In this document: positions 7,668-24,824 of the stretch, in pieces
Layout of the letters: each line of letters opens with the position of its first letter
How positions within the stretch are numbered: position 1 is the stretch's first letter
Assembly: GCF_900176885.1 (NCBI RefSeq)
Contig: NZ_LT839648.1
Coordinates: 895,049 to 959,048, forward strand
Direction: 5' to 3'
Length of the DNA: 64,000 nucleotides
From: Oceanobacillus senegalensis
Lineage (GTDB): Bacteria; Bacillota; Bacilli; Bacillales; Amphibacillaceae
The notes under the pieces: generated by a model
What the model was told of the DNA's origin: nothing
The model's database searches: none
The model's input: only the letters and a program-made list of their open reading frames with translations
Translations under genes and position numbers: made by a program

Positions 7668-9014
7668 CTAGGGCATGGATTTTTTGAGGATTTGGACTAG
7701 GAATTGTAGTTCTTCTTTGGTGATGGAGAGTGGTGGTGACATAGTTATTATATTGTTGTAGCCTGCTACAGTATCACTTGTTTTCCCTATGATAAGCCCT
7801 TGTTCCTTACAGCGTGCAACAACTTGTGCAACTAAGTTTTCTTCAAGTGGTTCTTTTGTTTGTTTATCTTTTACGAACTCAATTCCTGCGAGTAATCCCT
7901 TACCACCACGAACGTCTCCTACATTCGGATGGTCCTTTAATGCCTGCAACTCTTCAAACAACCAATTACCTAGTTCTTCGGAGTTTTTAACTAATTCTTC
8001 TCTTTCCATAATTTCAAGATTTTCAAGAGCAACAGCACATGCTGCAGGACTACCTCCAAATGTATTAACATGTCGGAAATGATTATATTCGTCGTTCGAG
8101 ATGAAAGCCTCGTAGATTTCTCGTTTAACGGCGGTTGCTGCTAATGGCATGTATGCACTTGTCAACCCCTTAGCCATGGTAATAATATCTGGTTTCACAT
8201 CATAGTGTGTAAATCCAAATGGTTTACCTGTACGACCAAAACCATTAATCACTTCATCCGAAATCAGTAAGACCCCATGTTTGTCACAAATTTCTCTTAC
8301 ACGTTTCATGTAATTATCATGTGGAACAAGTATTCCACCACCAGTAATGATGGGCTCCATGATAACTCCAGCAACAGTCTCATTGATTTCCCAGGTAATG
8401 GTTCTATCTATTTCGGCTGCAGATTGATCACAGCATTCCTCGTTTTTATTTGGGAAAGGACTTCTGTAACAGTCTGGTGGAGATACATGAACAAAGCCAG
8501 GAGCAAGAGGTTCATATTTAAAAGCACGTTGGTTTTGTCCTCCAGCAGCAAGAGTTGCAAAAGAGCTTCCATGATAAGATCGATAACGGGATATAAATTT
8601 ATGTCGACTAGGCTCGCCTATTTGTTGATAATATTGTCTTGCAATTTTAAATGCTGTTTCATTTGCTTCTGATCCACTATTGGAATAAAAAATAACATAT
8701 TCGTCACCAAGCCATTCATTTAACTTTTCGCTTAATAAAATACCTGGTATATGACTTTGTGTTAGGGGATAGTAAGGCATTTCTTTTAATTGCTTTGCAG
8801 CAGCATCAGCTAGTTCTTCTCTTCCATACCCTACATTTACACACCATAGCCCTGCCTGACCGTCTAAATACTTCTTCCCATCTATATCAGTTACCCACAC
8901 ACCATCAGCTTTCGTACTGATCATCGTACCCTCGGGATTGTATTTCTTCATGGCGTGCCATAGATATTTTTCATCCTTTTTAAGAAGCGATTGCTTTTCA
9001 GATTTATTTATCAT
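7668..9014 (-). CDS. Class III aminotransferase, DoeD-like (2,4-diaminobutyrate transaminase candidate)
   Basis: 448-residue fold-type I PLP transaminase of class III. Visible are the cofactor-phosphate motif NSGSEANETAFKIAR, ISDEVINGFGRTGK (PLP-pyridine Asp) and the Schiff-base Lys in TMAKGLTSAYMPLAA. The start at 9014 is preferred over ATGs farther upstream because GGGAG lies ten bases before it. It is closest in style to omega-amino-acid:pyruvate aminotransferases. Its divergent neighbour is an ectoine-hydrolase homologue, and both promoters carry the same operator. I therefore infer a DoeD role: moving the 4-amino group of L-2,4-diaminobutyrate to give aspartate semialdehyde. The class is certain; the substrate is an inference. 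Confidence 0.85.
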   Translation of the reverse strand: MINKSEKQSLLKKDEKYLWHAMKKYNPEGTMISTKADGVWVTDIDGKKYLDGQAGLWCVNVGYGREELADAAAKQLKEMPYYPLTQSHIPGILLSEKLNEWLGDEYVIFYSNSGSEANETAFKIARQYYQQIGEPSRHKFISRYRSYHGSSFATLAAGGQNQRAFKYEPLAPGFVHVSPPDCYRSPFPNKNEECCDQSAAEIDRTITWEINETVAGVIMEPIITGGGILVPHDNYMKRVREICDKHGVLLISDEVINGFGRTGKPFGFTHYDVKPDIITMAKGLTSAYMPLAATAVKREIYEAFISNDEYNHFRHVNTFGGSPAACAVALENLEIMEREELVKNSEELGNWLFEELQALKDHPNVGDVRGGKGLLAGIEFVKDKQTKEPLEENLVAQVVARCKEQGLIIGKTSDTVAGYNNIITMSPPLSITKEELQFLVQILKKSMP

Positions 9015-9048
9015 ACTCAAAAACTCCCTTCCCATTATCAATATGGCG

Positions 9049-9113
9049 ATTGTCGTTTGTCGACAATGAAAACTAGACAATTCTAATTAAACACAGGTAA
9101 GCGGAAAAGTCAA
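9049..9113 (-). promoter_or_regulatory. Promoter and GntR operator for the aminotransferase gene
   Basis: On the minus strand TTGACT (9113-9108), a 16-bp spacer and TTTAAT (9091-9086) form a sigma-A promoter. About 20 bases downstream lies TGTCGACAAACGACAA (9065-9050), containing the palindrome TTGTCGACAA. The same motif follows two other promoters of this locus, so binding by the GntR protein at 12262 would block transcription. Confidence 0.65.
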
Positions 9114-9407: not shown

Positions 9408-9463
9408 TTGACAATTCAAGTTCCAAGATTTATTATTTACTTAGAATTGCCGACAATCGACTA
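9408..9463 (+). promoter_or_regulatory. Promoter and GntR operator for the ectoine-hydrolase gene
   Basis: Consensus sigma-A promoter: TTGACA (9408-9413), 17-bp spacer, TATTAT (9431-9436). The operator core CGACAATCGACTA (9451-9463) lies just after the expected start of transcription. The resulting leader to the coding start is about 300 nt and contains no convincing ORF. Confidence 0.7.
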
Positions 9464-9743: not shown

Positions 9744-10931
9744 ATGGTGTTTTTCCCAATTTCTGAGTATCATGAAAGATTAGCAAAGACGAAACACCGT
9801 ATGGCCGCCAGTGGAATTGACGTATTGTTAGTAACAGATCCAGCAAACATTAATTATTTAAGCGGTTATGATGCATGGTCCTTTTATGTGCATCAGCTGC
9901 TTGTTATTTTTATAGATGAAGATCAGCCATATTGGATTGGTAGGGGGCAAGATGCAAGTGCTGCGATGCATACTTCTTGGCTGGATAAGGAACATGTTTA
10001 TGCATATGCGGACGATTACGTACAATCAACCATAAAGCATCCGATGGAGTTTGTAGGTGATTTTATTAAATCCAAAAATCGCGATAAACATACCATAGGA
10101 GCAGAATTTGATGCTTATTACTTTACGGCTAAAAATTTTATGAAACTTAAAGAGTGTTTACCTAATGCAATGTTTAAGGATGGAACTAATCTTGTTAACT
10201 GGGTGAGAATCATAAAATCGGAAAGGGAAATAGAATGCATAAAAATTGCATCCAAAATTTCCGAGAAAGCAATGCAGGCTGCTTTTGATACGATTGAACC
10301 TGGTGTAAAACAATCAGATGCAGTGGCAGCAATCTATCATGCGCTTATTCAAGGGACGGAGGATTATGGAGGAGACTATCCTGCTATAGTTCCATTATTA
10401 CCTACAGGTGATAAGACATCTGCATGTCATTTAACTTGGACAGATGATCCTTTCATTCAAGGTGATCCAGTTATCATTGAATTAGGAGGGTGCTACAAAC
10501 GATATCACTCACCGCTTGCAAGGACGATCATTTTGGGGATACCTGATGAAAAGTCACAGTATATTGCAGATGTTGTAGTAGAGGGAATTAATACAACGTT
10601 AGATGTCATCCAGCCGGGTATGACCTGTGGGGAAGTTGAGTTAGTCTGGAAAAAGGTAATAGAAAAACACGGTATTATAAAGGATTCCAGGCTTGGTTAT
10701 TCCATGGGATTGAATTATCCACCAGATTGGGGAGAGCATACCGCTAGCTTACGTGCGGGCGATAACACGGTATTAGAGCCGAATATGACATTTCATATGA
10801 TTCCAGGAATTTGGTTGGATAATATGGGGATTGAAATTAGTGAATCTTTTCGTGTAACAGAGTCGGGATGTGAAGTATTGGCTGACTTTCCACGTGAGCT
10901 ATTAGTTAAACCAAATATACGCTTGGCTTAA
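9744..10931 (+). CDS. doeA: Ectoine hydrolase-like M24 protein (DoeA/EutD)
   Basis: 395 residues in the creatinase/prolidase (M24) fold: an N-terminal domain to about residue 160, then the pita-bread domain. Long stretches match what I recall of DoeA/EutD ectoine hydrolases: GYDAWSFYVHQ, IGRGQDAS, YVQSTIKHPM, GGDYPAIVPLLPTG, HLTWTDDPF and NYPPDWGEHT. The M24 metal-binding Asp pair is replaced (ELGGCYKRYHSPLART, residues about 246-261), so the enzyme is probably metal-independent like creatinase. DoeA opens the ectoine ring to N-acetyl-diaminobutyrate. The ribosome site is GGAGGGG. The gene has its own GntR-controlled promoter. The M24 family is certain and the DoeA assignment strong from motifs and neighbours; an ordinary Xaa-Pro peptidase is the alternative. 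Confidence 0.85.
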   Translation: MVFFPISEYHERLAKTKHRMAASGIDVLLVTDPANINYLSGYDAWSFYVHQLLVIFIDEDQPYWIGRGQDASAAMHTSWLDKEHVYAYADDYVQSTIKHPMEFVGDFIKSKNRDKHTIGAEFDAYYFTAKNFMKLKECLPNAMFKDGTNLVNWVRIIKSEREIECIKIASKISEKAMQAAFDTIEPGVKQSDAVAAIYHALIQGTEDYGGDYPAIVPLLPTGDKTSACHLTWTDDPFIQGDPVIIELGGCYKRYHSPLARTIILGIPDEKSQYIADVVVEGINTTLDVIQPGMTCGEVELVWKKVIEKHGIIKDSRLGYSMGLNYPPDWGEHTASLRAGDNTVLEPNMTFHMIPGIWLDNMGIEISESFRVTESGCEVLADFPRELLVKPNIRLA

Positions 10932-11060: not shown

Positions 11061-12047
11061 TCAGCTTTCTTTATTCAAGTTTTCCCATACTTTAGGGTTG
11101 ATTAGATTTTTTGGTCTTTTTCCATTTAAACCAGCCAGCAAATTTTCAGCTGCTAATTCGGACATTTCTAACTCCGTTTCATAGGTTGAGGATCCAATAT
11201 GTGGCAATGTAACAACATTGTTTAGATTTAAGAGTTCATTTTGTGGATCGACTGGCTCCTGTTCAAAAACATCTAGCCCCGCTGCAAGAATTTCTTTATT
11301 TTTTAATGCATCGATTAATTCATTTTCTACAACAGTACCACCACGAGAAGCATTGATAAAAATTGCGGAATTTTTCATTAATTGGAATTCCCGCTTACCA
11401 ATCATTCCCCTTGTTTCTTCAGTCAGCGGGGTAATTAAGCAGATAAAATCGGATTCTTTTAATAAGCTATCTAAATCCTTATATGTTGCTGCAAATTTCT
11501 CTTCTGCGTCCGTTTTACGCGAGCGGCTGTGGTAAAGAATGTTCATATCAAAACCAAAATATGCCCGTTGAGCAATGGCATTACCAATCCTACCCATACC
11601 TATGATTCCTAATGTTTTATGATGGACGTCAACACCGTAATGCTCCTCTGTTAATGATTCGGTCCATTTTCCAGACTTCACAAAATGGTCTAATTCTGGC
11701 ATTCTTCTTGCCGTAGAAAGTATTAGGCCAAAAACCATATCTGCAACTGTATCGGTTAGAATTCCTGGTGTATTCGTTGCCATAATATTCCGTTTTGTTA
11801 ATTCGGCAATGTCGAGGTTATTATAGCCAACCGATACATTACTTACTATTTTTAAATTCGGTGCTTTTTCTAGTAATTGCTGGTTGACAGGAAGAGCCAA
11901 GCCAATTATTCCCTCTGTTTTTTCTAAAAAATCAAGAAATTCCCTATCACGGTTGGTGTCAATGTTTTTAAAAAACCGGACATCATGCTTCTGTTTTAGT
12001 GCTTCTAAAACAGGTTTTTCTAATCGTTCATATACTAAAATTTTCAT
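11061..12047 (-). CDS. D-2-hydroxyacid dehydrogenase (glyoxylate/hydroxypyruvate reductase type)
   Basis: 328-residue NAD(P)-dependent enzyme reducing 2-oxoacids to D-2-hydroxyacids. The nucleotide fold is marked by GIIGMGRIGNAIAQR (about 147-161). The catalytic triad is present: Arg in NASRGG, Glu in DVFEQEPVDP and His in LPHIGSST. VSVGYNNLDI and NTPGILTDTVAD are typical of the GyaR/GhrB branch acting on glyoxylate and hydroxypyruvate. Start 12047 follows GGGGGAGATATCGA; the longer reading lacks a ribosome site. It lies within the ectoine locus but on the opposite strand, convergent with doeA and divergent from gntR, and shares that intergenic operator region. A role in clearing a hydroxylated C2-C4 product is an inference. 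Confidence 0.88.
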   Translation of the reverse strand: MKILVYERLEKPVLEALKQKHDVRFFKNIDTNRDREFLDFLEKTEGIIGLALPVNQQLLEKAPNLKIVSNVSVGYNNLDIAELTKRNIMATNTPGILTDTVADMVFGLILSTARRMPELDHFVKSGKWTESLTEEHYGVDVHHKTLGIIGMGRIGNAIAQRAYFGFDMNILYHSRSRKTDAEEKFAATYKDLDSLLKESDFICLITPLTEETRGMIGKREFQLMKNSAIFINASRGGTVVENELIDALKNKEILAAGLDVFEQEPVDPQNELLNLNNVVTLPHIGSSTYETELEMSELAAENLLAGLNGKRPKNLINPKVWENLNKES

Positions 12048-12164
12048 TCGATATCTCCCCCCCATATAAAGGTAAAACATCCTTTATACATATACGTTCA
12101 AAATAACCGGTATATTAATAGAAGTCAAGCGGGAGTTTAAATAATTAAATTATTCAAATTATTA

Positions 12165-12222
12165 TTGACAACTTTAAATTGGGCTATTACAATGGAATTA
12201 ACTTAATGTCGACAATCGACTA
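12165..12222 (+). promoter_or_regulatory. Promoter and operator of the gntR gene
   Basis: TTGACA (12165-12170), 17 bp, TACAAT (12188-12193), followed 13 bases later by TGTCGACAATCGACTA (12207-12222). Placement relative to the -10 box matches the doeA promoter almost exactly, implying autorepression. Confidence 0.7.
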
Positions 12223-12261
12223 ATATATTTTTAATGAAATCCAATGAAGGAGACAATCAGG

Positions 12262-12921
12262 ATGAGTAATGAAGGGATTATAGTGAAAAAGTCATTAGGT
12301 GAATTAATTGCAGATCACCTTAGAAGGGATATTTATAATCAACATATTAAATTTGGGGAACGATTAATTGAAGCCGATTTAGCCGAACGATTTGATGTGA
12401 GTAGAAGTACCATTAGAGAATCTTTAAAAATCTTGGAACAAGAGGAATTAATAGTAAGTAAAGCACGAAAAGGGACGTTTGTTTCGGAATTCACAAAAAA
12501 TGATCTTGATGAGATGACTGAAGTGCGTTTACTTATTGAAGCTCATGCATTCGTTACGGCATTAGAAAATTTAAATGAAAAAAACTTCTTAGAGTTACAA
12601 GCTATCATCGAAAATATGAAAATAGAGGCAAAAAAAGGTAATTGGAATGAATTATTTGATTTAGATATGAAATTTCATCAGTATGTCGTTAATATGTGTG
12701 GAAATTCTAGGATTATAAAAATTTATGAATCCATTCGTATCCAAATTCGTATCTACTTTGCGCATCTTGATCAGTATTATTCTAGTCCTATGTCTTTTTA
12801 TAAGGAACATAAGGAATTATTTGAAGTTTTATTGCATAAAGATGGAGAGTTGGTTAAAAAACAAATTGAAAACCATATATTTTATGTAGAAGAGAAATTA
12901 CTTCAGCAACCAGAAAAGTGA
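12262..12921 (+). CDS. GntR-family regulator with FCD domain
   Basis: 219-residue transcription factor. Residues 1-75 form the winged helix of GntR (LAERFDVSRSTIRESLKILEQEELI, then KARKGTFVSEF). Residues 85-215 are an FCD effector domain, all helical, with the metal-site residues Asp and His in DLDMKFHQYV and His in KEHKELFEVL and ENHIFYV. An upstream ATG at 12244 lies in front of the AAGGAG site that serves 12262, so the shorter start is used. It heads the operon to the ALDH, RidA, M20 and dehydratase genes. The operator at its own promoter and at two divergent promoters makes it the likely local repressor, induced by a pathway intermediate. In proteobacteria ectoine loci are controlled by EnuR or DoeX, which are of other types. 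Confidence 0.85.
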   Translation: MSNEGIIVKKSLGELIADHLRRDIYNQHIKFGERLIEADLAERFDVSRSTIRESLKILEQEELIVSKARKGTFVSEFTKNDLDEMTEVRLLIEAHAFVTALENLNEKNFLELQAIIENMKIEAKKGNWNELFDLDMKFHQYVVNMCGNSRIIKIYESIRIQIRIYFAHLDQYYSSPMSFYKEHKELFEVLLHKDGELVKKQIENHIFYVEEKLLQQPEK

Positions 12922-12980
12922 TAGTTTATGTAAGAAAGAAGTAGGGAATTTTAGAAAATAAAAGATGGGAAGTGCTGTCA

Positions 12981-14411
12981 ATGAGAAAATATCAAATCTA
13001 TATTAATGGAGAATGGACAGGAGAAGAATTACAAACGTTAGCTGTTACCAACCCTGCTAATGGTCAACTTGTTGGGGAAGTACCTTACGCAGGTGAGGTG
13101 GAAACCAACGATGCTATTGATGCCGCACATACTGCCTTTCAATCTTGGTCACAATTAACAGCGTTTGAGCGTGCAGGATACTTAAAGAAATTTTATCAGC
13201 TTATGCTAGACAACCAAGAAGAATTAGCCGAAATTATGACTCTTGAGATGGGAAAGCCAATTAAAGAATCGCGCGGTGAGGTTCAATATGCTGCATCCTT
13301 TATTGAATGGTTTGCTGAAGAGGGAAAACGCGTATATGGCGAGACCATTCCTTCTCATGTACACGCAAAGCGTCTTCAGGTTTGGAAGAAGCCAGTAGGT
13401 GTAGTGGCGGCGATTACGCCATGGAATTTCCCGGCTGCTATGTTAACGAGAAAAATGGGTCCGGCGCTTGCAGCAGGGTGTACGGTTGTCATTAAGCCCT
13501 CCAGTGAAAGTCCTCTAACAGCTATTAAATTACTTGAATTATGTGAGAAAGCTGGGTTTCCAAGAGGGGTCGTTAATTTAGTCACGGGTTCTTCTTCTAA
13601 AATAGCGAAGGCAATCATGGATAATGAAAAAGTACGGAAGATTACATTTACTGGTTCCACGGAAGTAGGGAAAATTTTAATTCGCCAAAGTGCTGATCAA
13701 GTAAAGAAACTTTCCTTAGAATTAGGTGGGCATGCACCTATGATTGTTTTAAATGATGCTAATGTCGATGTAGCGGTAAAAGGTGCTGTTGCATCGAAAT
13801 TTCGGAATACGGGCCAAACCTGCATTTGTGCAAACCGAATATATGTTCAGTCCGGGATATATGATGAATTTATTGAAAAGTTTGCGACTGCTGTTAAAGA
13901 GTTGAAAGTGGGAGACGGAATCGATGAAACCGTAGACATTGGCCCTCTAATTAACCAGGAAGGTTTTGAAAAGGTTACTAGTCATGTAGAGGATGCAGTG
14001 AGTAAAGGAGCATCCGTTGTTACTGGTGGAAAAGCGATACGTGATGAGAGTGGGGCATTTTATTCACCAACAGTGATTAAGGATGTAAATGAATCCATGG
14101 TCGTCATGCAGGAAGAAACATTTGGGCCAGTCGCTCCGGTTCAAAAAGTAGAATCTGCCCAAGAAGCGATAAAATTTGCAAACAGCACGCCATATGGATT
14201 AGCTGCTTATGTTTTCACAGAGAATGTAGCTAAGGGTATGCAAGTCATTGAACAGCTTGATTTTGGAATTGTCGGCTGGAATGAAGGAGCACCGTCAGCA
14301 GCACAGGTTCCATTCGGAGGAATGAAAGAAAGTGGTGTAGGAAGAGAAGGTGGTCACGAAGGAATTGAGGCATTTATTGAGTCGCAATATGTTGCAATTG
14401 GAATGGAGTAA
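12981..14411 (+). CDS. NAD(P)-dependent aldehyde dehydrogenase, DoeC/GabD-like
   Basis: 476-residue ALDH superfamily enzyme. Cofactor motifs include TPWNFPAAMLTRK and FTGSTEVGK. The general-base Glu lies in LELGGHAPMIV and the catalytic Cys in NTGQTCICANR. The sequence is of the succinate-semialdehyde dehydrogenase type, a group that includes the aspartate-semialdehyde dehydrogenase DoeC of ectoine degradation. It follows the regulator by 59 bases. ATG at 12981 is preferred to a GTG nine bases earlier because of the GGGAAG spacing. Product by context: L-aspartate from aspartate semialdehyde. GABA catabolism (GabD) is the main alternative, and without assays the two cannot be told apart. Confidence 0.85.
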   Translation: MRKYQIYINGEWTGEELQTLAVTNPANGQLVGEVPYAGEVETNDAIDAAHTAFQSWSQLTAFERAGYLKKFYQLMLDNQEELAEIMTLEMGKPIKESRGEVQYAASFIEWFAEEGKRVYGETIPSHVHAKRLQVWKKPVGVVAAITPWNFPAAMLTRKMGPALAAGCTVVIKPSSESPLTAIKLLELCEKAGFPRGVVNLVTGSSSKIAKAIMDNEKVRKITFTGSTEVGKILIRQSADQVKKLSLELGGHAPMIVLNDANVDVAVKGAVASKFRNTGQTCICANRIYVQSGIYDEFIEKFATAVKELKVGDGIDETVDIGPLINQEGFEKVTSHVEDAVSKGASVVTGGKAIRDESGAFYSPTVIKDVNESMVVMQEETFGPVAPVQKVESAQEAIKFANSTPYGLAAYVFTENVAKGMQVIEQLDFGIVGWNEGAPSAAQVPFGGMKESGVGREGGHEGIEAFIESQYVAIGME

Positions 14412-14616: not shown

Positions 14617-15000
14617 ATGAAAAAGAAAATTTATACAGAAAATGCACCAAAGCCAACTGGTCCATATTCTCAAGGTGTTGCGGCCGATGGACTGATTTTC
14701 GTTTCCGGTCAGGATGGTGTATTTCCGGACGATACGACAGCCGGTAACAGTCTAAACGAACAAACTGAAGCTTGTTTACAAAATATAGAAAATATCTTAA
14801 ATAAGGCGGGAGCAACTTTAGATGATATCGTTCATGTGACATGTCATCTAGCAGATTTAACAGAGGAAAATGTTCGCGAGTTTAACCAAGCATACGCTAA
14901 ATATTTTGAAGATATCGAGATTAAACCAGCCAGAATAACGGTTGGAAGTGTGTTAATGGAAACAGATATAGAGATTACAGCCATTGCCTATAAAAAATAG
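14617..15000 (+). CDS. RidA family enamine/imine deaminase
   Basis: 127 residues, the whole YjgF/YER057c/RidA fold. The family Arg that binds the substrate carboxylate is present in KPARITVGSVLME, as is the GPYSQGV start motif. RidA proteins hydrolyse reactive 2-aminoacrylate-type enamines released by PLP dehydratases. Two genes downstream is a threonine-dehydratase-family enzyme, which gives this RidA an obvious partner. Start behind AAGGGGAAGG. The 205-base gap upstream contains an inverted repeat (TGAAGACC/GGTCTTCA) but no gene. Confidence 0.92.
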   Translation: MKKKIYTENAPKPTGPYSQGVAADGLIFVSGQDGVFPDDTTAGNSLNEQTEACLQNIENILNKAGATLDDIVHVTCHLADLTEENVREFNQAYAKYFEDIEIKPARITVGSVLMETDIEITAIAYKK

Positions 15001-15031
15001 TTCTCAGGGTATTGGGAGGGGGGATGGTTTA

Positions 15032-16255
15032 TTGACACTTTCTAAGCAAATGGAACGATTAACAGCTGATATGATTTATTGGAGACGTCACCTTCATGCT
15101 AATCCAGAGTTAAGTTTTCAAGAACAAGAAACGTCCCGATTTGTGGCGAAGGAGCTTGAAAAAATTCCCGGGATGCGTGTAGACCAGAGAGTTGGTTATC
15201 CCACAGCGGTTGTTGGTATGCTTTCCTCTAGCCCCGGGCCCACCATAGCAATCCGTGCAGACATGGATGCTTTACCAATTCAGGAACAAAATGACGTTAC
15301 GTATAAGTCAAAGAGAAACTCTGTTATGCATGCTTGTGGTCATGATGCACATACAGCAATTGTACTTGGAGTCGCCAAACTATTAAGTAAATATTTCCAA
15401 AAGGGTTTACTTCAAGGGACTGTTAAATTTCTGTTTCAGCCAGCGGAGGAACATGTGGATGAACGTGGATATAGTGGTGCAAAATATATGGTTGAAGCTG
15501 GAGTTTTAGATGATGTTGATGCAGCCATTGCCTTGCATATGAGTCCGGAAAATCGCGTAGGAGAGATAAAAATAAATGATGGGTATAGTATGGCGAATGT
15601 CGATGTGTTCAAGGGAAAAATACTTGCTACAGGTGGGCATGGTGCCTACCCACATTTAGGTACGGATCCTATTTGGATGTCTGCGTCTGTCCTCCAAGCA
15701 TTATATGGAATTACAGGTCGTAGGATAACCCCTTTAGAGTCTGCGGTAATAAGCATTGGACGTGTTCAAGGTGGGACTACAAGTAATGTTATTCCAAGTA
15801 GTATGGAAATAGAGGGAACGATTCGTAGTTATCAACCTGAAGTGAGAGAACACCTTCTTAAGGAAGTAGAAAATGCCTTCAAAATGGTTAAAAACTTAGG
15901 TGGTGACTACCAACTTCAATTTATTGAAGAAGACCCGGCTTTAAAAAATGACTCAGAGATTAATAACATAATAAGAAAGATTATAGAAAATAAGTTCCCA
16001 TATATTCAAGTTATTGAAGAGCCTTTTGGTTTGGGTGGAGAAGATTTTGCCCATATGGCTAAACATATCCCAGCTTCCATGTTCTTTTTAGGGTGTGCAA
16101 TCGACGATGGAAAAGCCAGGAATCTGCACACTCCCTATTTTGATATAGACGAACAGGTACTCCCTATCGGTGCAATGATTCTTTCTGAAGCAGCTAAATA
16201 TCTATTGGTTAGTGGAAAAAGGAATGATAGAAATGGGAAGGGAGTGGATTTATGA
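15032..16255 (+). CDS. M20 family amidohydrolase, DoeB2-like deacetylase candidate
   Basis: 407-residue zinc-dependent M20 peptidase/amidohydrolase of the M20D (hippurate/IAA-amino-acid hydrolase) type. Metal and catalytic residues are visible: Cys and His in HACGHDAH, the Glu pair in QPAEEH, His in ALHMSPE, and His in LHTPYFDID near the C-terminus. The lid domain lies about residues 190-300. The start is TTG at 15032, chosen for the strong GGGAGGGGGG eight bases upstream; an ATG at 14984 would overlap the ridA 3' end without a ribosome site. In the classical pathway N-acetyl-diaminobutyrate is deacetylated by DoeB (AspA/AstE family). An M20 enzyme called DoeB2 does this in some species, and that is the inferred role here. 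It overlaps the next gene by 4 bases. Confidence 0.82.
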   Translation: MTLSKQMERLTADMIYWRRHLHANPELSFQEQETSRFVAKELEKIPGMRVDQRVGYPTAVVGMLSSSPGPTIAIRADMDALPIQEQNDVTYKSKRNSVMHACGHDAHTAIVLGVAKLLSKYFQKGLLQGTVKFLFQPAEEHVDERGYSGAKYMVEAGVLDDVDAAIALHMSPENRVGEIKINDGYSMANVDVFKGKILATGGHGAYPHLGTDPIWMSASVLQALYGITGRRITPLESAVISIGRVQGGTTSNVIPSSMEIEGTIRSYQPEVREHLLKEVENAFKMVKNLGGDYQLQFIEEDPALKNDSEINNIIRKIIENKFPYIQVIEEPFGLGGEDFAHMAKHIPASMFFLGCAIDDGKARNLHTPYFDIDEQVLPIGAMILSEAAKYLLVSGKRNDRNGKGVDL

Positions 16256-17223
16256 TAGAAAATAAGGTTGAATTACAAGAAATATGGCAGGCTCGAAAAA
16301 GAATATCAACTATAGTAAAACATACTCCCCTCATTTATTCCGATGAACTTTCCAAACTAACAGGAAAATCCATTTATCTAAAACTAGAAAACCTTAATAC
16401 AACGAATTCTTTTAAAATTAGAGGAGCTGCTAATAAGATTTTAAGTTTATCAGAACAAGAGAGAGAGAAGGGAATTACAACCTTTTCAACCGGTAATTTT
16501 GGATTAAGTGTTGCTTTTGTTGCTAAGACATTAGGAATTAGAGCAGTAATATGTATCTCCGGTCGAGTTCCAAATGCAAAAGTAAGCGTATTAAAAGAAA
16601 CTGGTGCTGAGATCCAAATAGTAGGAGAATCACAGGATGATGCTGAAAAACATAGCTACTACCTTGAGAAGGAACAGGGGTTAACGGTTATTCATCCATT
16701 TGATGATCCGTATGTTATTGCAGGTCAAGGTACCATTGGATTGGAAATTTTACAGGATTTACCTGGGGTGGACACCGTACTTGCAGGTCTATCTGGTGGA
16801 GGACTTCATTCAGGACTTGGTATCGCTTTAAAGAATTCGAGTTCATCCATTAAGCTTATCGGTCTTTCCACTGCAAATGGGGCGGCTATGTATGAGAGCA
16901 TACAAGCTGGAAAGCCAACTGTAATTGCGGAAAAAGACACACTTGCTGATAGTTTATTAGGAGGAATCGGTCTTCATAATAAGTATACATTTCAATTCGT
17001 TCAGGACTTTGTGGATGACATCATTTTATTAAATGAAAAAGAATTTGCTGACGGGATGGTCTATATTTTAGAAAAGCACCGCATGGTCATTGAAGGAGCG
17101 GCGGCATCTGGGGTTGGGGCAGTTTTAAATGGAAAGGTTACACTCGGGGAAAATGTTGTGATTGTTTTAAGTGGAAGTAGTGTCGATCTTCCAATTATTA
17201 TGAATTTAATAAAAGAGCAGTAG
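16252..17223 (+). CDS. eutB: Threonine dehydratase-family PLP enzyme, EutB-like
   Basis: 323-residue fold-type II PLP enzyme without a C-terminal ACT domain, so a catabolic form. The PLP Lys is in NSFKIRGAA (about residue 54), the phosphate-binding loop is GLSGGGLHSG and the C-terminal Ser is in LSGSSVD. GQGTIGLEILQDLPGVDTV and KDTLADSLLGGIGLHNKYTF resemble what I recall of EutB, the dehydratase of hydroxyectoine utilisation clusters. Translation is coupled to the M20 gene (ATGA overlap). A likely substrate is a 3-hydroxy amino acid derived from hydroxyectoine, for example a hydroxy-diaminobutyrate or hydroxyaspartate. Threonine/serine dehydratase or serine racemase activity are the alternatives. 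No EutC (cyclodeaminase-like) or EutA is present. Confidence 0.8.
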   Translation: MIENKVELQEIWQARKRISTIVKHTPLIYSDELSKLTGKSIYLKLENLNTTNSFKIRGAANKILSLSEQEREKGITTFSTGNFGLSVAFVAKTLGIRAVICISGRVPNAKVSVLKETGAEIQIVGESQDDAEKHSYYLEKEQGLTVIHPFDDPYVIAGQGTIGLEILQDLPGVDTVLAGLSGGGLHSGLGIALKNSSSSIKLIGLSTANGAAMYESIQAGKPTVIAEKDTLADSLLGGIGLHNKYTFQFVQDFVDDIILLNEKEFADGMVYILEKHRMVIEGAAASGVGAVLNGKVTLGENVVIVLSGSSVDLPIIMNLIKEQ

Positions 17224-17309
17224 AAAACCTTATCATCGTTAATGAAACAGCATAGTTATTCATAGAATATAGTAAGCCTTCCTACATTGCCTTAAGGAGG
17301 AGTTACCGT

Positions 17310-18143
17310 ATGAATAAAATATTAATCAATGATTCTATAATGGAAAGAAAGAAAATGATTGATATTGAGGATCGTGGTTATCAATTTGGCGATGGAATTT
17401 ACGAGGTAATTGGCGTATATCAGGGAAAGTTTTTTATGCTTGATGAACATTTGGAAAGGCTGGAAAGAAGTGCTAGGGAAATTCAATTATCCCTTCCGTC
17501 TTCTATAAGTGAGATAAAAGAAAATCTCATGGAATTGGTTCAGGTGAATAATTTGCAGGAAGGTGTTATTTATTTACAGGTAAGTCGTGGTGTAGCGGAG
17601 CGTTGGCACTATTTTCCGAGCTCAGATACGAAGCCTGTCCTTGTTGCTTATACAAAGCTAGAAGAAACGATGCGTGAGGAAGAGGATAACGGAGCTACAG
17701 CAGTTCTTACAGAAGATATTCGTTGGCTTCGTTGTGATATAAAGACATTGAATCTCCTCCCAAACGTACTTGCTAAACAGAAAGCGGTAGAGCATAAAGC
17801 AGTAGAAGCCATTTTTTATCGTGGCGATGTCGTTACAGAAGCAAGTGCTTCAAACGTGTTTATCGTAAAAAATAATGAGGTTTTAACACACCCAGCTAAT
17901 CATTATATTTTAAATGGAATAACACGTAGAAAAGTACTGTCCCTGTGTGATGATTTGAATATAAACCTACAGGAAAAAGCATTTACGGTAAAGGATTTAT
18001 TAGAAGCAGACGAGGTGTTTGTTACGGCAACGAAATTAGATGTTGTTCCCATTATAAAGGTCGATCAACAAACGATTGGCACAGGTTCGCCAGGTAGGAC
18101 CACAAAGAAAATCTTGCACGCTTTTAGGGCATCTATAAAGTGA
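17310..18143 (+). CDS. dat: D-amino-acid aminotransferase
   Basis: 277-residue fold-type IV transaminase matching bacillar D-alanine aminotransferase. DRGYQFGDGIYEV is at residues 21-33 and the PLP Lys is at 145 (CDIKTLNLLPN), exactly the number known for Bacillus Dat. Substrate-loop and PLP motifs VTEASASNVFIV and TATKLDVVPI follow. It exchanges amino groups between D-amino acids (D-Ala, D-Asp, D-Glu) and 2-oxoacids. The gene follows eutB by 86 bases and precedes an alanine-racemase gene, so D-amino-acid chemistry belongs to this operon. The last codons and the TGA stop lie inside the end of a repeat-like sequence (18134-18176), suggesting the native 3' end was replaced. AAGGAGG precedes the ATG. 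Confidence 0.93.
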   Translation: MNKILINDSIMERKKMIDIEDRGYQFGDGIYEVIGVYQGKFFMLDEHLERLERSAREIQLSLPSSISEIKENLMELVQVNNLQEGVIYLQVSRGVAERWHYFPSSDTKPVLVAYTKLEETMREEEDNGATAVLTEDIRWLRCDIKTLNLLPNVLAKQKAVEHKAVEAIFYRGDVVTEASASNVFIVKNNEVLTHPANHYILNGITRRKVLSLCDDLNINLQEKAFTVKDLLEADEVFVTATKLDVVPIIKVDQQTIGTGSPGRTTKKILHAFRASIK

Positions 18144-18176
18144 AACTTCATTCAGCGGAGGTCTTACTACCAGTTA
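18134..18176 (-). repeat. Partial copy of the dispersed intergenic repeat (right end only)
   Basis: Read on the minus strand, TAGTAAGACCTCCGCTGAAT then GAAGTTTCACTTTATA parallels the right end of the other copies (CAGTAATACCCCCACTGATT then GAAGATTCACTTTA). The left-end TTTATCGCAGG is not recognisable. It overlaps the last codons and the stop of dat. Confidence 0.45.
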
Positions 18177-18237
18177 ATTCGGTAAAATGATTCGGTTGGA
18201 TAGCATCCTTACTTAAACCTCGTTTGGAGGGATTGTA

Positions 18238-19383
18238 ATGCTTCAACACGTAAATTCTCTCGTTGAAGGTCACACAGTTGCTGAGATAAATCTAGCTGCT
18301 CTCCGTTCAAATGTTCAAGCACTTAAAAATAAAATAGATCACCGCATCTTCTTAGCGGTGATCAAAACAGATGCTTACGGACATGGGATTATTCCGATTG
18401 CCAAGGAAGCTTTAAAGGCTGGTGCTGATCGGCTTGGTGTTACAACCGTAGAGGAGGGGATTCTTCTTAGGCAAAATGGAATATATATTCCCATTCATAT
18501 TCTCAGTACGATTACCCCGGAACAAGCAGAGTATGTTGTTCGTTATCGGTTAATTGCCTCTATTAGTTCAGAATATACCGCTAGAGCTATTAGTAAGGAA
18601 GCGGTAAAGCAGAACCAATCTGCATCCGTACACTTAAAGGTGGATACGGGCTTACATCGGTTTGGTATTGATCCATTGAAAGCTATAGAATTTTGTCATC
18701 ATTGCTATTATCTCCCTCATTTATTCTGGGAAGGAATTTATACTCATTTTTCTAGTGCGGATGAAGGAGAATGGGATACAACAGAAAAACAATTTCAATT
18801 ATTCATGGATACGGTGAAGAATTTAGAGAAAAAGCAATTTTACTTTCCTTTAAAACATGTTGGTGCATCAACCATTACAATAGAAAGAAAAGATATGCAT
18901 TTAGACATGGTGCGTCCTGGGATAGCTTTATTTGGTTATCATCCAGCAGTTCGACAACGAAATATAGTTACTTTAAAACCTGTCATGACATTAAAAACGA
19001 AATTAGTTCTTAAACGTTCCCTTGCTGCTAATTCTCAGGTTGGATATGGTGGTGATTATGTAACAAAGGGCCAGGAAACAATAGGGATAATACCAATTGG
19101 GCATGGGGATGGATATAAACGAAGATTATCTAATAATGGGCATGTGCTAATAAGAGGAAAACGAGTGGAAATTGTCGGTACTATCTCCCTTGATCAAACC
19201 TTTATCAATATTACTAATCTTATAGATGCAAAAGAAGGAGATGAAGTTGTTTTGATAGGGAGACAGGGTCAGGAAGAAATTTCAGCTCGAGATATCGCTG
19301 ATTGGATTCATAGTAATGTAGATGAAGTATTAGCAAGTCTAATGTATCGGATCAAAAGAAAATATATTGATGAATTTTCATAA
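18238..19383 (+). CDS. alr: Alanine racemase family protein
   Basis: 381-residue alanine racemase (fold-type III PLP enzyme). The PLP Lys is in AVIKTDAYGHG, the catalytic Tyr in VGYGGDYV and the C-terminal motif in GTISLDQTFI. Length is standard. GGAGG lies nine bases before the ATG. It sits between dat and a tartrate/D-malate dehydrogenase homologue rather than beside acpS or a toxin-antitoxin gene as in the usual Bacillus alr locus. It is therefore probably a second, catabolic racemase of this operon rather than the wall-precursor enzyme; other amino acids (Asp, Ser, hydroxy-amino acids) are possible substrates. The motif GYGGDY differs from the common GYGRTF and may mark altered specificity. 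Confidence 0.88.
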   Translation: MLQHVNSLVEGHTVAEINLAALRSNVQALKNKIDHRIFLAVIKTDAYGHGIIPIAKEALKAGADRLGVTTVEEGILLRQNGIYIPIHILSTITPEQAEYVVRYRLIASISSEYTARAISKEAVKQNQSASVHLKVDTGLHRFGIDPLKAIEFCHHCYYLPHLFWEGIYTHFSSADEGEWDTTEKQFQLFMDTVKNLEKKQFYFPLKHVGASTITIERKDMHLDMVRPGIALFGYHPAVRQRNIVTLKPVMTLKTKLVLKRSLAANSQVGYGGDYVTKGQETIGIIPIGHGDGYKRRLSNNGHVLIRGKRVEIVGTISLDQTFINITNLIDAKEGDEVVLIGRQGQEEISARDIADWIHSNVDEVLASLMYRIKRKYIDEFS

Positions 19384-19394
19384 AGGGGGAGCCA

Positions 19395-20465
19395 ATGAAA
19401 TCATTTAAAATAGCACTTATACCAGGAGATGGAATCGGCCCGGAGGTAGTGGCAGAAGGGGTTAAAATTTTAAAAGCGATAGAAGAAAAGGATCCATCTT
19501 TATCCTTTTCATTTACGGAATTTCCTTGGGGATGTGAGTATTATTTAGACCATGGGACAATGATGGATGAAAACGCGTTAGATATACTCAAAGATTATGA
19601 TGCTATTTATTTAGGTGCAGTAGGCTATCCAAGTGTACCAGACCATATTTCCTTACGAGATTTATTGATTAAAATACGAAAAGGCTTTGATCAATATGTT
19701 AATTTAAGACCGATTGCGTTGCTCCATCCTGAATTAACCCCTTTAAAAAACAAAAAAGAAAAAGATATTGATATGCTAGTAATCCGTGAAAATAGTGAAG
19801 GGGAATATTCTGGTGCTGGTGAATGGTTGTTTAAAGATCAACCGGAAGAAGTGGTTCTGCAAACGGGGGTTTTTTCTCGAAAAGGAGTAGAGCGGATTAT
19901 CCGCTATGCATATGAAGAAGCAAGTAAAACAAATCGAACGCTTACAAGTATTAGTAAGGGAAATGCGCTAAACTATTCTATGGTGTTTTGGGATCAAATA
20001 TTTGAAGAAGTTGGCAGGGAGTATCCAAATGTTGAAACCTATTCTTATTTAGTCGATGCAGCGAGTCTTTATTTTGTATCACAACCAGAACGTTTTGAGG
20101 TGGTTGTTACTTCCAATCTTTTTGGAGATATTGTAACAGATATTAGTGCTGCAATTACAGGTGGATTAGGTTTAGCGACTGGAGCAAATATAAATCCGGA
20201 AAGAAATTATCCATCAATGTTTGAGCCTGTACATGGATCAGCGCCTGATATAGCTGGAAAAGGTGTTGCGAATCCAATTGCAGCTATTTGGTCGGTTAGC
20301 CAAATGTTAGATTTCTTTGGATTAGAGGAATGGGGCTCTGCGGTTCTTGCTACTATTAAGAAAATTATTCGTGAAGAAACATATCTTACACCTGATTTAG
20401 GTGGAATTGCTTCAACACAGGAGTTGGGCAATCATTTTGTTGAGTTATTGATGAAGGATAATTAA
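19395..20465 (+). CDS. Tartrate/D-malate dehydrogenase-like (isocitrate/isopropylmalate dehydrogenase family)
   Basis: 356-residue beta-decarboxylating dehydrogenase. PGDGIGPEV starts the fold, KIRKGFDQYVNLRPI carries the substrate-binding Arg residues, and TSNLFGDIVTDISAAITGGLGLA holds the metal-binding Asp pair. EPVHGSAPDIAGKGVANP is the cofactor loop. The GWEYY-like motif (WGCEYYLDHG) and lack of the LeuB-type loop place it with tartrate dehydrogenase/decarboxylase (TtuC) and D-malate dehydrogenase (YcsA/DmlA). These oxidise 2-hydroxy-dicarboxylates and can decarboxylate the product. The gene begins 11 bases after alr and is closed by a terminator, so it is the last gene of the operon. A role on a hydroxylated C4 acid from hydroxyectoine is an inference. 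Confidence 0.88.
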   Translation: MKSFKIALIPGDGIGPEVVAEGVKILKAIEEKDPSLSFSFTEFPWGCEYYLDHGTMMDENALDILKDYDAIYLGAVGYPSVPDHISLRDLLIKIRKGFDQYVNLRPIALLHPELTPLKNKKEKDIDMLVIRENSEGEYSGAGEWLFKDQPEEVVLQTGVFSRKGVERIIRYAYEEASKTNRTLTSISKGNALNYSMVFWDQIFEEVGREYPNVETYSYLVDAASLYFVSQPERFEVVVTSNLFGDIVTDISAAITGGLGLATGANINPERNYPSMFEPVHGSAPDIAGKGVANPIAAIWSVSQMLDFFGLEEWGSAVLATIKKIIREETYLTPDLGGIASTQELGNHFVELLMKDN

Positions 20466-21463: not shown

Positions 21464-22840
21464 CTATTTATCGATATTTACTTCATACTTTTTTATTCTG
21501 TTATAAAGAGTCACTCTTGAAATTCCAAGTTTTCTAGCTGTAGCAGATTTATTTCCATTCATCTTATTCAGGGTTTCTTCTATTAGTTTTCTCTCTATTT
21601 CTTCCTTTTCTTGTGGGAGGGAAAGAGTTTCTTTTACCATTGATTTTGTAGGAGTGGGATTGGATGGTAGAAAAAAGTGATACAGATCCGCTCCATGAAT
21701 AATTGGTTTCTCAGATAAAATAACAATCCGTTGCATGACATTTCGTAGTTCTCTTATATTACCTGGCCACTCATAATCAAGCATTAATTGTAGTGCATCT
21801 TTTTCCAGTTTTGGTATTGGAGTTTGATATTGTGAGGCAAACTGATGGAGAAAAATATGTGATAATTCAGCAATATCTTCCATTCTTTCTCGTAAAGGAG
21901 GCATTCTGATTTGAATTACATTCAATCGATAAAATAAATCCGAACGAAATTTTTTTTCATTCATTTGTTTCTCTAAGTCTTGATTGGTAGCTGCTAAGAA
22001 ACGTACATTGACCTTCTTTCCTGTCGTGTCACCAATACGGTAAATCTCATTTTCTTGCAATACACGCAATAATTTAACTTGCATCTCTAGTGGAAGTTCA
22101 CCGACCTCATCTAAAAAGATGGTTCCGCCCTCAGCCATCTCAATTTTTCCTGCTTTTCCATTCTTTTCGGCTCCGGTAAATGCTCCACCCTCATACCCGA
22201 ATAATTCACTTTCGAATAATGCACTTGGAATAGCGCCGCAGTTTACTGGAATAAATGGTCCGTCTTTACGATTGCTTGCTTCATGGATAGCACGTGCACA
22301 AATTTCTTTCCCTGTTCCACTTTCACCAAGAATTAATGTAGTGGCGTTTGTATTAGCAGCTTTTTTGGCAATTTGTACTGTTTTCTGTAGTGCTTGGGAA
22401 TTCCCTTTCAGTTTGGAAAAGGGTGAATCTTCCTTTGCTGTATACACCTTTTTTCTTAATTCATATAGTTCTGCAGATGTGGTGATTAGATTATCGTTTA
22501 ATTTCACAATTTGAGTGATATCTCGTTCAACAGAAACCGCTCCAATTAACACGCCATGTCTGTCAAAGACGGGTGAAGCATTAATGACTACATGTTTATC
22601 ATGTCGTGGGCGATGATAGGTGTTTTTAACAGATTCTCTCGTTTTTAGTACAGTAAGAACCATTAAATCATCATGATGGAAAAAATCGTTTATTTTTTTG
22701 TTAAGAATTTCAGATTGCCTAATATTGTACGTTTTTACAGCAGCATCATTCCAGAAAATAACTTCTTTATTCCGGTTTATGACGGTTATGGCATCATCTT
22801 CAGCTTCTAAAATTGCCTTCATGTAATGGATATCCACCAT
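21464..22840 (-). CDS. Sigma-54-dependent activator (PAS, AAA+, Fis), proline/arginine-type regulator
   Basis: 458 residues. Residues 1-115 hold a PAS sensor domain ([20 protein letters not shown]). Residues 145-375 are the AAA+ ATPase, with Walker A GESGTGKE, the sigma-54-contacting GAFTGA loop, [13 protein letters not shown] (Walker B) and the arginine-finger region. Residues 415-455 form a Fis-type helix-turn-helix ([23 protein letters not shown]). It is the size of B. subtilis RocR but not clearly its orthologue. It faces the P5C dehydrogenase gene, which has a textbook sigma-54 promoter, so it almost surely activates it, probably in response to proline or a breakdown product sensed by the PAS domain. 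Confidence 0.92.
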
Positions 22841-22889
22841 AATCCCCCCAATTTATTGAAAAATAATTGTTTATATAATGTACAGTATG

Positions 22890-22905
22890 TTTACATCCTT
22901 GTAAA
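22890..22905. promoter_or_regulatory. Candidate upstream activator site
   Basis: Inverted repeat TTTACATCCTTGTAAA about 100 bp upstream of the -24/-12 promoter, the distance typical for enhancer sites of sigma-54 activators. A further half-site-like CTTACAAAA follows. Inferred from position and symmetry only. Confidence 0.45.
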
Positions 22906-23002
22906 AAGAACTTACAAAATTTTCATATCATTTATTAACCCTTTTATAACTCGACGGAAGACTAACCTCATATCACAAGGGTTTCTACCTTTCTTATAGA
23001 CG

Positions 23003-23018
23003 TGGCATGATTTTTGCT
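23003..23018 (+). promoter_or_regulatory. Sigma-54 (SigL) -24/-12 promoter of the proline operon
   Basis: TGGCATGATTTTTGCT has the invariant GG and GC dinucleotides with the required 10-bp spacing, and 8 of the other consensus positions (TGGCAC-N5-TTGCW). It lies 66 bp upstream of the P5C dehydrogenase start and between that gene and the divergent activator. Confidence 0.88.
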
Positions 23019-23083
23019 TGTTGAGTTGTGATAGCTTTTATCTAGTGATTCGAACGTATAAGAAGGATAAGGAGGTATTAAGA

Positions 23084-24631
23084 ATGGTTTTACCATTTAA
23101 ACATGAACCATTTACGGATTTTAGTAATGAAAATAAACGTAGGGAATTTGAAGAGGGCTTGAGAAAAGTGAAAGAAGAATTAGGAAAAGATTATCCGATT
23201 GTCATTAATGGAGAAAGATTTTTCACAAATGATAAATTAGTATCTATCAATCCAGCAAATAAAAAGGAAGTTATTGGCCATGTTTCAAAAGCAACGAAAG
23301 AACACATTGATAAGGCATTTGAATCGTCTTTGGAAGCGTTTAAATTATGGGGGAAAATGGCACCAGTAGCTCGTGCAGATATATTATTTAAGGCAGCAGC
23401 AATTGTGCGGAGACGCAAGCATGAATTTTCAGCATGGTTAGCATTTGAAGCAGGTAAACCGTGGGGGCAAGCTGATGGGGATACAGCAGAAGGGATTGAT
23501 TTCTTAGAGTACTATGGAAGACAAATGCTTGATTTGGTAAATGGAAAGCCGCTAGAGGATCGAGCTAATGAGCATAATTCTTATTTCTATCAACCTATGG
23601 GACCAGGTGTAACTATTCCACCATGGAACTTTGCATTTGCAATCGTATGTGGAACAACAGTAGCACCAATTGTTGCTGGAAATCCTGTTTTACTTAAGCC
23701 TTCTGAAAATACACCTGTTATTGCTTATAAACTCGTAGAAGTACTAGAGGAAGCAGGTCTACCAAAAGGTGTCTTAAATTTTGTGCCAGGTGATCCTGCG
23801 GTGATTGGAGATTACCTGGTGGATCACAAGGAAACTCGTTTCATTAATTTTACAGGTTCCCGCGCAACGGGTACAAGAATAATTGAAAGGGCATCAAAGG
23901 TACAAGACGGCCAACAGCATCTTAAACGTGTGGTGGCAGAGATGGGGGGAAAAGACACAATTATTGTAGATAAAGACGCTGATTTAGATCTTGCCGCAGA
24001 TGCAATTGTCAACTCCGCGTTTGGCTTTTCTGGACAAAAGTGTTCGGCATGCTCTAGAGCTGTCCTTCATAAGGATGTCTATCATGAGGTTCTAGAAAAA
24101 GCAGTTCGCTTAACCAAAGAATTAACGGTCGGTAATCCAACCGAAAAAGATGTCAATATGGGTGCTGTCGTTAATAAAAAACAGTTTGAGAAGGTAAAAG
24201 AATATATAGAAATTGGTAAAAGAGAAGGAGAGCTAGTGTTAGGTGGAGAAACAGATGATTCAGAAGGATTTTTTGTGAAACCAACTATTTTTAAAGATGT
24301 TGCACCAAAAGCAAGACTAATGCAGGAGGAAATCTTTGGTCCAGTTGTTGCTTTTGCAAAAGCAGATAATTTTGATGAACTACTTGAAATTGCTAACAAC
24401 ACGGAATATGGGCTAACAGGTGCCGTCATCTCTAATAACCGTGAGCATCTAGAAAAAGCACGTTACGATTTCCATGTTGGAAACCTTTACTTTAATCGAG
24501 GCTGTACAGCAGCTATTGTAGGGTACCAGCCATTTGGTGGTTTTAAAATGTCTGGTACAGATTCTAAAGCAGGTGGACCTGATTACTTACAGCATTTCTT
24601 AGAAGCAAAAGTTGTGTCTGAAAGATATTAG
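23084..24631 (+). CDS. rocA: 1-Pyrroline-5-carboxylate dehydrogenase
   Basis: 515 residues, the same length as B. subtilis RocA/PutC. It oxidises glutamate-5-semialdehyde (from P5C) to glutamate with NAD. ALDH motifs are complete: [21 protein letters not shown], catalytic Glu in AEMGGKDTI and catalytic Cys in [15 protein letters not shown] at 23084 is chosen because AAGGAGG stands eight bases before it; a longer reading from a TTG at 23018 would overlap the sigma-54 promoter. It is the first gene of the proline set. The -24/-12 promoter and opposite activator point to induction by the substrate and independence from sigma-A. Confidence 0.96.
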
Positions 24632-24643
24632 ATAGTAGTCATC

Positions 24644-24824
24644 TTTATCGCGGGTTTACTGGCTGTAGGCCCCTAGCAAGAAAGAATTCGAGGAGAATCC
24701 GAAAAGATAAGTAGGAATCAACAAACAGGAAAAGCCTGATTCGTTCAAGGGTCTACTGGTCTCTCATGTGATAGCAACAATAGGTGGGGGATAAAGACCC
24801 CCACATTGAAGTTTCACTTTTATA
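24644..24824 (+). repeat. Dispersed intergenic repeat, copy 5
   Basis: Left end TTTATCGCGGGTTTACTGG at 24644. The right end is the hairpin GTGGGGG/CCCCCAC (24784-24804) followed by ATTGAAGTTTCACTTTTA. It occupies most of the gap between the P5C dehydrogenase and proline dehydrogenase genes, so it may act as a terminator-like structure within the put set. Confidence 0.72.

Follow-up and report, generated by a model that had tools for sequence, protein, structure and literature searches.

We analyzed a 64,000-nucleotide stretch of the Oceanobacillus senegalensis genome (4.3 Mb; bases 895049-959048 of contig 4, NZ_LT839648.1), hereafter the window, and a gene set within it that starts around the ectoine hydrolase-like gene doeA and runs to position 20465. 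The evidence supports the view that these genes form one ectoine-type regulon that includes a D-amino-acid branch. We give about an even chance to the idea that this regulon breaks down ectoine and hydroxyectoine through D-configured intermediates to pyruvate, a scheme in which we infer every substrate and every reaction. Taken at its fullest, the proposal falls a shade short of an even chance: a new ectoine pathway in salt-tolerant Bacillota, in which an alanine racemase homolog (Alr) has been turned into a 2,4-diaminobutyrate (DABA) racemase, ectoine and hydroxyectoine converge on 4-amino-2-oxobutyrate and proceed through D-malate to pyruvate, and EutA and EutC are dispensed with. Gene content, conservation, an operator, the lack of an EutC or EutA match and residue changes were observed directly; the substrate assignments rest on one gate residue, the company the genes keep and metabolite data from another organism.

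In the proposed route, DoeA would open the ring and an M20 amidohydrolase would deacetylate the product, so that ectoine would yield L-DABA and hydroxyectoine 3-hydroxy-DABA. Alr would then epimerize L-DABA to D-DABA, which the D-amino-acid transaminase Dat would convert to 4-amino-2-oxobutyrate; 3-hydroxy-DABA would reach the same compound in a single step, by loss of water on EutB, with RidA helping imine hydrolysis. From this meeting point, a hydroxypyruvate reductase-like enzyme (HPR) would reduce the oxo acid to (R)-4-amino-2-hydroxybutyrate, a 4-aminobutyrate (GABA)-type transaminase and a semialdehyde dehydrogenase would carry it to D-malate, and TtuC would perform the oxidative decarboxylation of D-malate to pyruvate. 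A GntR/FCD regulator would control the whole set via the inverted repeat TGTCGA-N3-TCGACA.

Gene families were assigned by profile search against curated models, with bit scores compared to each model's cut-off. A class-III transaminase gene on the reverse strand (7668..9020) is followed by doeA on the forward strand (9744..10931) and by the HPR gene on the reverse strand (11061..12080), after which a forward-strand run encodes the GntR/FCD regulator (12244..12921), an aldehyde dehydrogenase (12972..14411), RidA (14617..15000), the M20 amidohydrolase (14984..16255), EutB (16252..17223), Dat (17310..18143), Alr (18238..19383) and TtuC (19395..20465). The sequence-only reading that preceded this work had placed eutB-dat-alr-ttuC at 16252-20465 and HPR at 11061, and the open reading frame calls reproduce these coordinates exactly. 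DoeA, a DoeA/EutD-like ectoine hydrolase, scores 481.6 bits with TIGR02993, its best family but below the cut-off of 613; among solved structures it comes closest to chains annotated as ectoine hydrolase DoeA (391 bits; 6twk, E 3.8e-116), and the next best stands at 120 bits. The EutB-type pyridoxal phosphate (PLP) dehydratase lies slightly below the cut-offs of both EutB models (PRK07476/NF005680, 406.6 against 413; TIGR02991, 365.1 against 413.35), yet those two are its top matches. Dat (TIGR01121, 372.7 against 277.45 bits) and Alr (TIGR00492, 344.2 against 168) both pass. TtuC, of the tartrate/D-malate dehydrogenase family, exceeds the cut-off of TIGR02089 (482.2 against 470.4 bits) and falls below that of a second model, PRK08194 (474.4 against 501); its structural relative 3flk (E 3e-105) is a tartrate dehydrogenase/decarboxylase, and the genome holds one further TtuC relative at 50% identity. 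HPR is a D-2-hydroxyacid dehydrogenase (PF00389/PF02826; GhrB/2-ketogluconate reductase-like) whose nearest model is GhrB, at 400.2 bits and below the cut-off of 492. The aldehyde dehydrogenase is of the succinate-semialdehyde type (TIGR01780, 660.6 against 646.35 bits), RidA is an imine/enamine deaminase (PF01042), and the regulator combines PF00392 with PF07729. We propose that the M20 protein (PF01546; TIGR01891, 386 against 153.75 bits; DoeB2 model, 233 bits, below its cut-off of 550) is the N-acetyl-DABA deacetylase, and that the class-III transaminase (PF00202; PRK07678, 780 against 488 bits), which has an operator in front, is the C4 transaminase of this strain.

The inverted repeat has three matches with at most 2 mismatches in the window, ahead of three promoters: TGTCGTTTGTCGACA at 9051..9065 before the transaminase gene, TGCCGACAATCGACT at 9448..9462 before doeA, and TGTCGACAATCGACT at 12207..12221 between HPR and GntR. 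Because three hits are unremarkable by number (13 of 100 shuffles reach three), the weight of the operator rests on its position and conservation. Eight 8-mers from the operator core are widely shared, by 22-28 of the 28 regions between HPR and GntR and by 24-29 of the 33 regions upstream of doeA. The GntR/FCD protein is presumed to bind this repeat.

To place the set in context, we searched 147 family genomes for DoeA; 77 of them match, at 87 listed places, and stretches of up to 20 kb were read around 80 of these places, the window's own being among the remaining seven. We call type 1 those loci whose DoeA is about 65% or more identical to that of the window, and type 2 the 44 loci at 62% or less. 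Type-1 doeA occurs in 36/147 genomes and 13/46 genera, with named carriers in Oceanobacillus, Virgibacillus, Lentibacillus and Compostibacillus; this total counts G032, whose DoeA falls just below 65% but whose locus L079 carries the set, and leaves out G001, whose DoeA is at about 65% with the set absent and whose stretch L078, in which DoeA stands alone, remains among the loci L044-L079. HPR is found in 36/36 of these genomes, Dat and Alr in 35/36 each, EutB in 33/36 and TtuC in 26/36 (24 by genome count, plus G070 and G125 from a whole-genome search), at per-gene identity thresholds that were our own choice. The contig of G018 stops ahead of Dat and Alr, and contig ends account for two of the EutB gaps (G018 and G041). 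Order is nearly constant: HPR, GntR, usually a transaminase, aldehyde dehydrogenase, M20, EutB, Dat, Alr and often TtuC. Since it recurs in 36 of 147 genomes, the set is not a chance assembly, even if genomes of one family are non-independent observations. The sequence-only reading had joined a D-amino-acid branch to an ectoine-type operon and had named in advance conservation with doeA in relatives as a condition; the branch indeed belongs to one conserved regulon, in 36/147 genomes and with this doeA type.

Type-2 loci often contain an M20 gene and a more distant aldehyde dehydrogenase, and nine of the 44 have EutB; HPR, GntR, Dat, Alr, TtuC and RidA gave no match in them at E<=1e-10. Twenty stretches from other families of the class, which cover 25 of the 35 extra-family DoeA places listed and whose best DoeA per stretch is 57-65% identical, likewise gave no hit at E<=1e-10 to HPR, GntR, Dat, Alr or TtuC, and so yielded none of the telling variants that had been hoped for. 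Operator sites follow the same division: at no more than 1 mismatch there are 64 in the 36 loci L044-L079, 2 in the 44 type-2 loci and 0 in the 20 other-family loci. Three of the loci L044-L079 have no site: L078 and, with no GntR gene visible, L049 and L061; in L056 a GntR gene is not visible either, but a site is present. Monophyly of type-1 DoeA was recovered when G001 was included (support 0.70) and not when it was left out. An ATP-binding cassette transporter set adjoins DoeA in some type-1 loci, a permease cluster being seen in 5, and the one permease scanned (L051) exceeds the cut-off of the ectoine/hydroxyectoine transporter model EhuD (230.9 against 205.2 bits).

Several further features of these loci were recorded. 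AbgT-family transporter genes lie near type-1 operons (L276:4412-5974; L047:4191-5714) and possibly take up intermediates. In many type-1 operons an NhaC-like antiporter gene (PF03553) separates alr from ttuC, or follows alr if the operon has no ttuC (e.g., L136:13321-14871); an identity as MleN was considered for the gene after alr and dropped when one search brought nothing useful. Two DoeA matches lie close together in the other-family loci L145, L146, L147, L148 and L151. A single stop codon falls inside the matched DoeA stretch of G100, G114, G026, G083, G099, G023 and G082, which may reflect decay or a match running past the gene end.

The residue that bears most on substrate is the gate of the racemase. 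We aligned 32 operon Alrs, each from a different genome, with 31 other Alrs from the class and read the gate (Tyr354 of the Geobacillus enzyme, a tyrosine that confines the substrate to alanine; position 362 in the window protein) from the alignment to 4y2w: all 32 operon Alrs have Asp there, and all 31 others have Tyr. Operon Alrs also replace Asn210, Tyr289, Met318 and Met139, several of the replaced residues being invariant in the other 31, and retain K43, Y270, R226, R141, K134, H170 and D319, which we take to have catalytic roles. They form a single clade (support 0.95), and across 101 genomes of the class only the window's own Alr exceeds 40% identity to the window Alr. The gate position governs which side chains alanine racemases accept, according to the relevant passages of three papers (PMC4517790, PMC3485190, PMC3245724), one of which places it facing the substrate side chain. 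In the Thermoanaerobacter enzyme described in the first of these, the equivalent residue is Gln360, and Asp or Glu there reduced alanine activity. An Asp gate would suit the positive charge on a side chain like that of DABA but not another carboxylate; in all 32 operon Alrs it should thus repel hydroxyaspartate. A new racemase specificity is likely, judging from these substitutions. A partial precedent exists in the lysine-preferring Lyr/Bar racemases, which, as excerpted from PMC3485190, likewise keep the Alr fold with the gate tyrosine replaced and admit a longer cationic side chain; their gate is Thr/Ala, in contrast to the Asp of the operon Alrs.

The operon Dat also forms a separate group, 63-80% identical to the window Dat within the group, and the ordinary Dats compared lie at 55% or less. 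Among the best 80 loci of a Dat search, 8 were of the operon type (65-80%) and 72 were ordinary Dats (<=55%) without the operon. Group-specific residues are G35, A240, K242 and D244, and the pocket charge is shifted from position 35 to 242. Catalytic K145 and the carboxylate trap (Y31, R98, H100) are kept in 37 aligned rows, one of them gapped at Y31, a set that includes genomes fetched twice. We considered K242 as a sign of an acidic substrate and set this aside: as presented in the pertinent section of PMC10003956, a positive residue at either pocket place binds the far carboxylate of 2-oxoglutarate. Because 2-oxoglutarate binding explains such a residue, Dat is undecided between substrates.

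For hydroxyectoine, the absence of EutA and EutC from the window genome claimed in the sequence-only reading was borne out: neither EutC (TIGR02992, E<=1e-70) nor EutA (TIGR02990, E<=1e-20) has a match there. EutC likewise has a match in 0/33 type-1 genomes having EutB, and it is present in all nine genomes whose type-2 loci carry EutB (L085, L092, L094, L095, L097, L099, L102, L103, L108). RidA hydrolyzes imines of the kind that EutB would produce. EutC would not be needed in type 1, because EutB dehydration and RidA-assisted imine hydrolysis reach the oxo acid. The iminosuccinate reductase model BhcD also picks up the one EutC scanned (160.8 bits, below the cut-off), in line with a possible imine reductase, and EutB and EutC acting via an imine after ring opening would fit these data. 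Metabolite data from Ruegeria bear on where the hydroxyl is lost: in the sections of PMC8739950 on growth with hydroxyectoine, the hydroxylated alpha-N-acetyl-DABA (hydroxy-alpha-ADABA) was present, hydroxy-DABA was scarce and DABA was present, and conversion of hydroxy-DABA to DABA was reported. This would place loss of the hydroxyl at or before hydroxy-DABA, ahead of the aspartate level.

Variants of the exit branch help to separate its parts. Of the 28 type-1 loci in which GntR and the dehydrogenase are both visible, 26 have a class-III transaminase between them, and the two examined by profile scan proved to be GABA transaminases (764 and 760.4 bits against 676). In G100 (L125, 2235-12830), HPR, GntR, aldehyde dehydrogenase, TtuC and a transaminase form a unit with operator sites and without DoeA, Dat, Alr or EutB, which may reveal the original role of the module. 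Two short stretches at contig ends hold less: HPR adjoins TtuC in G046 (L128), and G114 has a shorter piece of the unit. Conversely, G144 has no EutB in its genome (E<=1e-60) while DoeA, HPR, Dat, Alr and TtuC are kept, and the operon of Oceanobacillus halophilus is without EutB, a 55% copy lying elsewhere in the genome. G144, O. halophilus and the partial units fit a division of labor in which Alr and Dat serve ectoine, EutB serves hydroxyectoine and the rest is shared. By our own reasoning, an (R) configuration fits HPR and a D-malate dehydrogenase alike.

The route put forward in the sequence-only reading led from hydroxyectoine to 3-hydroxyaspartate, which Alr would epimerize and Dat convert to oxaloglycolate, with TtuC leading on to hydroxypyruvate or glycerate and HPR acting as reductase. 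TtuC-type enzymes do handle oxaloglycolate and tartrate, the nearest model of HPR is a hydroxypyruvate reductase, ectD is present in the window genome, and L-erythro-hydroxyaspartate would, as we reason, have the right C3 configuration. Glycerate kinase (PF02595) is found in 132/147 genomes, the window's included, but says little because it is nearly universal in the family; the window operon has no gene for it, and G146, which carries the operon, matches neither PF02595 (E<=1e-30) nor the other glycerate kinase family, PF13660. An exit through glycerate or hydroxypyruvate is thus probably wrong, as the chain would also be broken in the G100 unit. 3-Hydroxyaspartate is probably the wrong substrate too, given the Asp gate in 32/32 operon Alrs and, in the part of PMC8739950 concerned, the removal of the hydroxyl before aspartate in Ruegeria. 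Moreover, EutB had been offered as an alternative to Alr and Dat on the same compound and would be redundant, yet 33/36 type-1 genomes keep all three, and G144 has no EutB match but retains Dat, Alr, TtuC and HPR. We regard this route as unlikely. Marginally less so, and still unlikely, is ordinary D-alanine/D-glutamate chemistry, in which Dat with pyruvate and Alr from D-alanine to L-alanine would recycle the amino group or feed the cell wall, ectoine would go to L-aspartate, and HPR and TtuC would be side enzymes. That both enzymes pass the curated models, that Dat keeps its alpha-carboxylate trap and a lysine of the 2-oxoglutarate-binding kind, and that most aspartate-route genes are present speak for it. 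It is countered by the operon Alr, which lacks the gate tyrosine and other invariant residues, by two further Alr genes in the window genome, both with the gate tyrosine, and by the linkage of Dat and Alr to this doeA type (35/36 genomes, against 0/44 type-2 and 0/20 other-family loci).

A third alternative has Alr and Dat act on 3-hydroxy-DABA, with the hydroxylated amino-oxo acid processed by HPR, transaminase, dehydrogenase and, as a tartrate-like compound, TtuC, and with EutB otherwise employed. The Asp gate argument holds here as for DABA, and TtuC accepts tartrate too. The hydroxylase gene ectD is commoner in type-1 genomes, at 17/35 against 18/112 others (p=2e-4, among non-independent genomes of one family), but the difference is weak against the other 39 fetched doeA genomes (12/39, p=0.15), and EutB in 33/36 genomes would compete for the same substrate. 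We consider this reading improbable.

A number of observations weigh against the DABA route through D-malate itself. The short route from L-DABA to L-aspartate needs no Alr, Dat, HPR or TtuC, and the gain of such a detour is unexplained. RidA was matched in type-1 loci only, but in just 20/35 type-1 genomes (0/44 type-2 loci). An earlier proposal has EutABC acting on the intact hydroxyectoine ring, as set out in the relevant passage of PMC5924519; the activities of EutABC are called unknown in a passage of PMC8739950. The gate is not always Tyr in genuine Alrs, two Thermoanaerobacter enzymes having Gln and His in the portion of PMC4517790 that treats them, and the Dat side-chain pocket with its lysine K242 shows no preference for DABA over dicarboxylates. 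On the exit side, the window operon has no GABA transaminase, and the divergent class-III transaminase or a gene elsewhere must serve. TtuC could equally use tartrate. The operon kind of TtuC is missing from 10/36 type-1 genomes in whole-genome searches (six hold only a 45-52% relative, and G019, G032, G129 and G139 have none at E<=1e-100), so D-malate would need another outlet there. The G100 unit has two deacylases and a tripartite ATP-independent periplasmic (TRAP) transporter beside it, and faces one deacylase and the transporter, so it may serve another substrate; no operator was seen with the shorter pieces in G114 and G046. Finally, at the chosen thresholds the aldehyde dehydrogenase was not seen in the stretches of G054, G076, G089, G122 and G144, nor M20 in those of G032, G089 and G144.

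Compared with the EutABCDE-Atf-Ssd and DoeABCD systems of Ruegeria, Sinorhizobium and Halomonas, the window shares a presumed ring opening by a DoeA/EutD-like enzyme, a proposed deacetylation, a class-III transaminase, a succinate-semialdehyde-type dehydrogenase and EutB. It differs in having no EutA or EutC match, in its M20 deacetylase and in the extra Alr, Dat, HPR, TtuC and RidA, and its proposed end product is pyruvate in place of the L-aspartate of canonical ectoine catabolism. The regulator in the operon is a GntR protein with an FCD domain, unlike the MocR-type EnuR of the canonical cluster, which was sought within the operon. Window TtuC is an above-cut-off member of the D-malate/tartrate dehydrogenases (TIGR02089; 3flk) and differs from those known in that its D-malate would come from an ectoine-derived amino acid. 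The beta-hydroxyaspartate cycle (BhcABCD) also has an EutB-like PLP dehydratase that acts on a beta-hydroxy amino acid. Window EutB reaches 212.7 bits with the BhcB model NF045641, against a cut-off of 550, and, unlike in that cycle, no EutC-type reductase was found in the window genome at E<=1e-70. A protein elsewhere in the genome matches the BhcC model NF045642 at 171.9 bits against 690, that model not having been run genome-wide. At L007:1303-3568 (G000, near 3.79 Mb), a PALP gene resembling threonine synthase precedes a distant BhcC-like (3-hydroxy-D-aspartate aldolase) gene; the idea that the two form a beta-hydroxyaspartate pair found no support, the PALP protein being nearest threonine synthase and the other at the 171.9 bits just given.

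A putative Bacillota cluster, pucR-eutBCD-atf-abgB-thrA-adh (PMC13188858), has doeA/eutB, an amidohydrolase and an aldehyde dehydrogenase as in the window and resembles type 2. It has EutC and PucR, and the section of that paper describing it mentions neither a racemase nor a D-amino-acid transaminase, and likewise no D-hydroxyacid dehydrogenase and no tartrate/D-malate dehydrogenase; the main text of the paper contains neither the term 'alanine racemase' nor 'hydroxyaspartate'. The same paper states, in the part concerned, that ectoine use by Gram-positive bacteria had previously not been shown. Searches of the literature outside supplements and most subscription journals brought up no title or abstract on such a gene set or route, so we call the set a variant of ectoine catabolism whose proposed route, if confirmed, would be new.

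Downstream of the operon, the window appears by eye to contain a proline/delta-1-pyrroline-5-carboxylate (P5C) utilization cluster at 21464-27553 (sigma-54-type activator, P5C dehydrogenase, proline dehydrogenase, then a sodium:solute symporter, for which alone a profile scan was made). Also by eye, an N-acetylmuramic acid 6-phosphate utilization cluster follows at 27839-32282 (etherase, phosphotransferase system permease, RpiR-type regulator).

Ectoines are widely used as protectants against salt stress and serve as a nutrient in saline habitats, and the breakdown of hydroxyectoine is unsettled. The regulon described here provides a second, chemically complete proposal for that breakdown, with a defined operator and a likely new racemase specificity, and it yields single-gene predictions that separate ectoine use from hydroxyectoine use. 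If the proposal is true, these bacteria would have solved hydroxyectoine breakdown without EutA or EutC.

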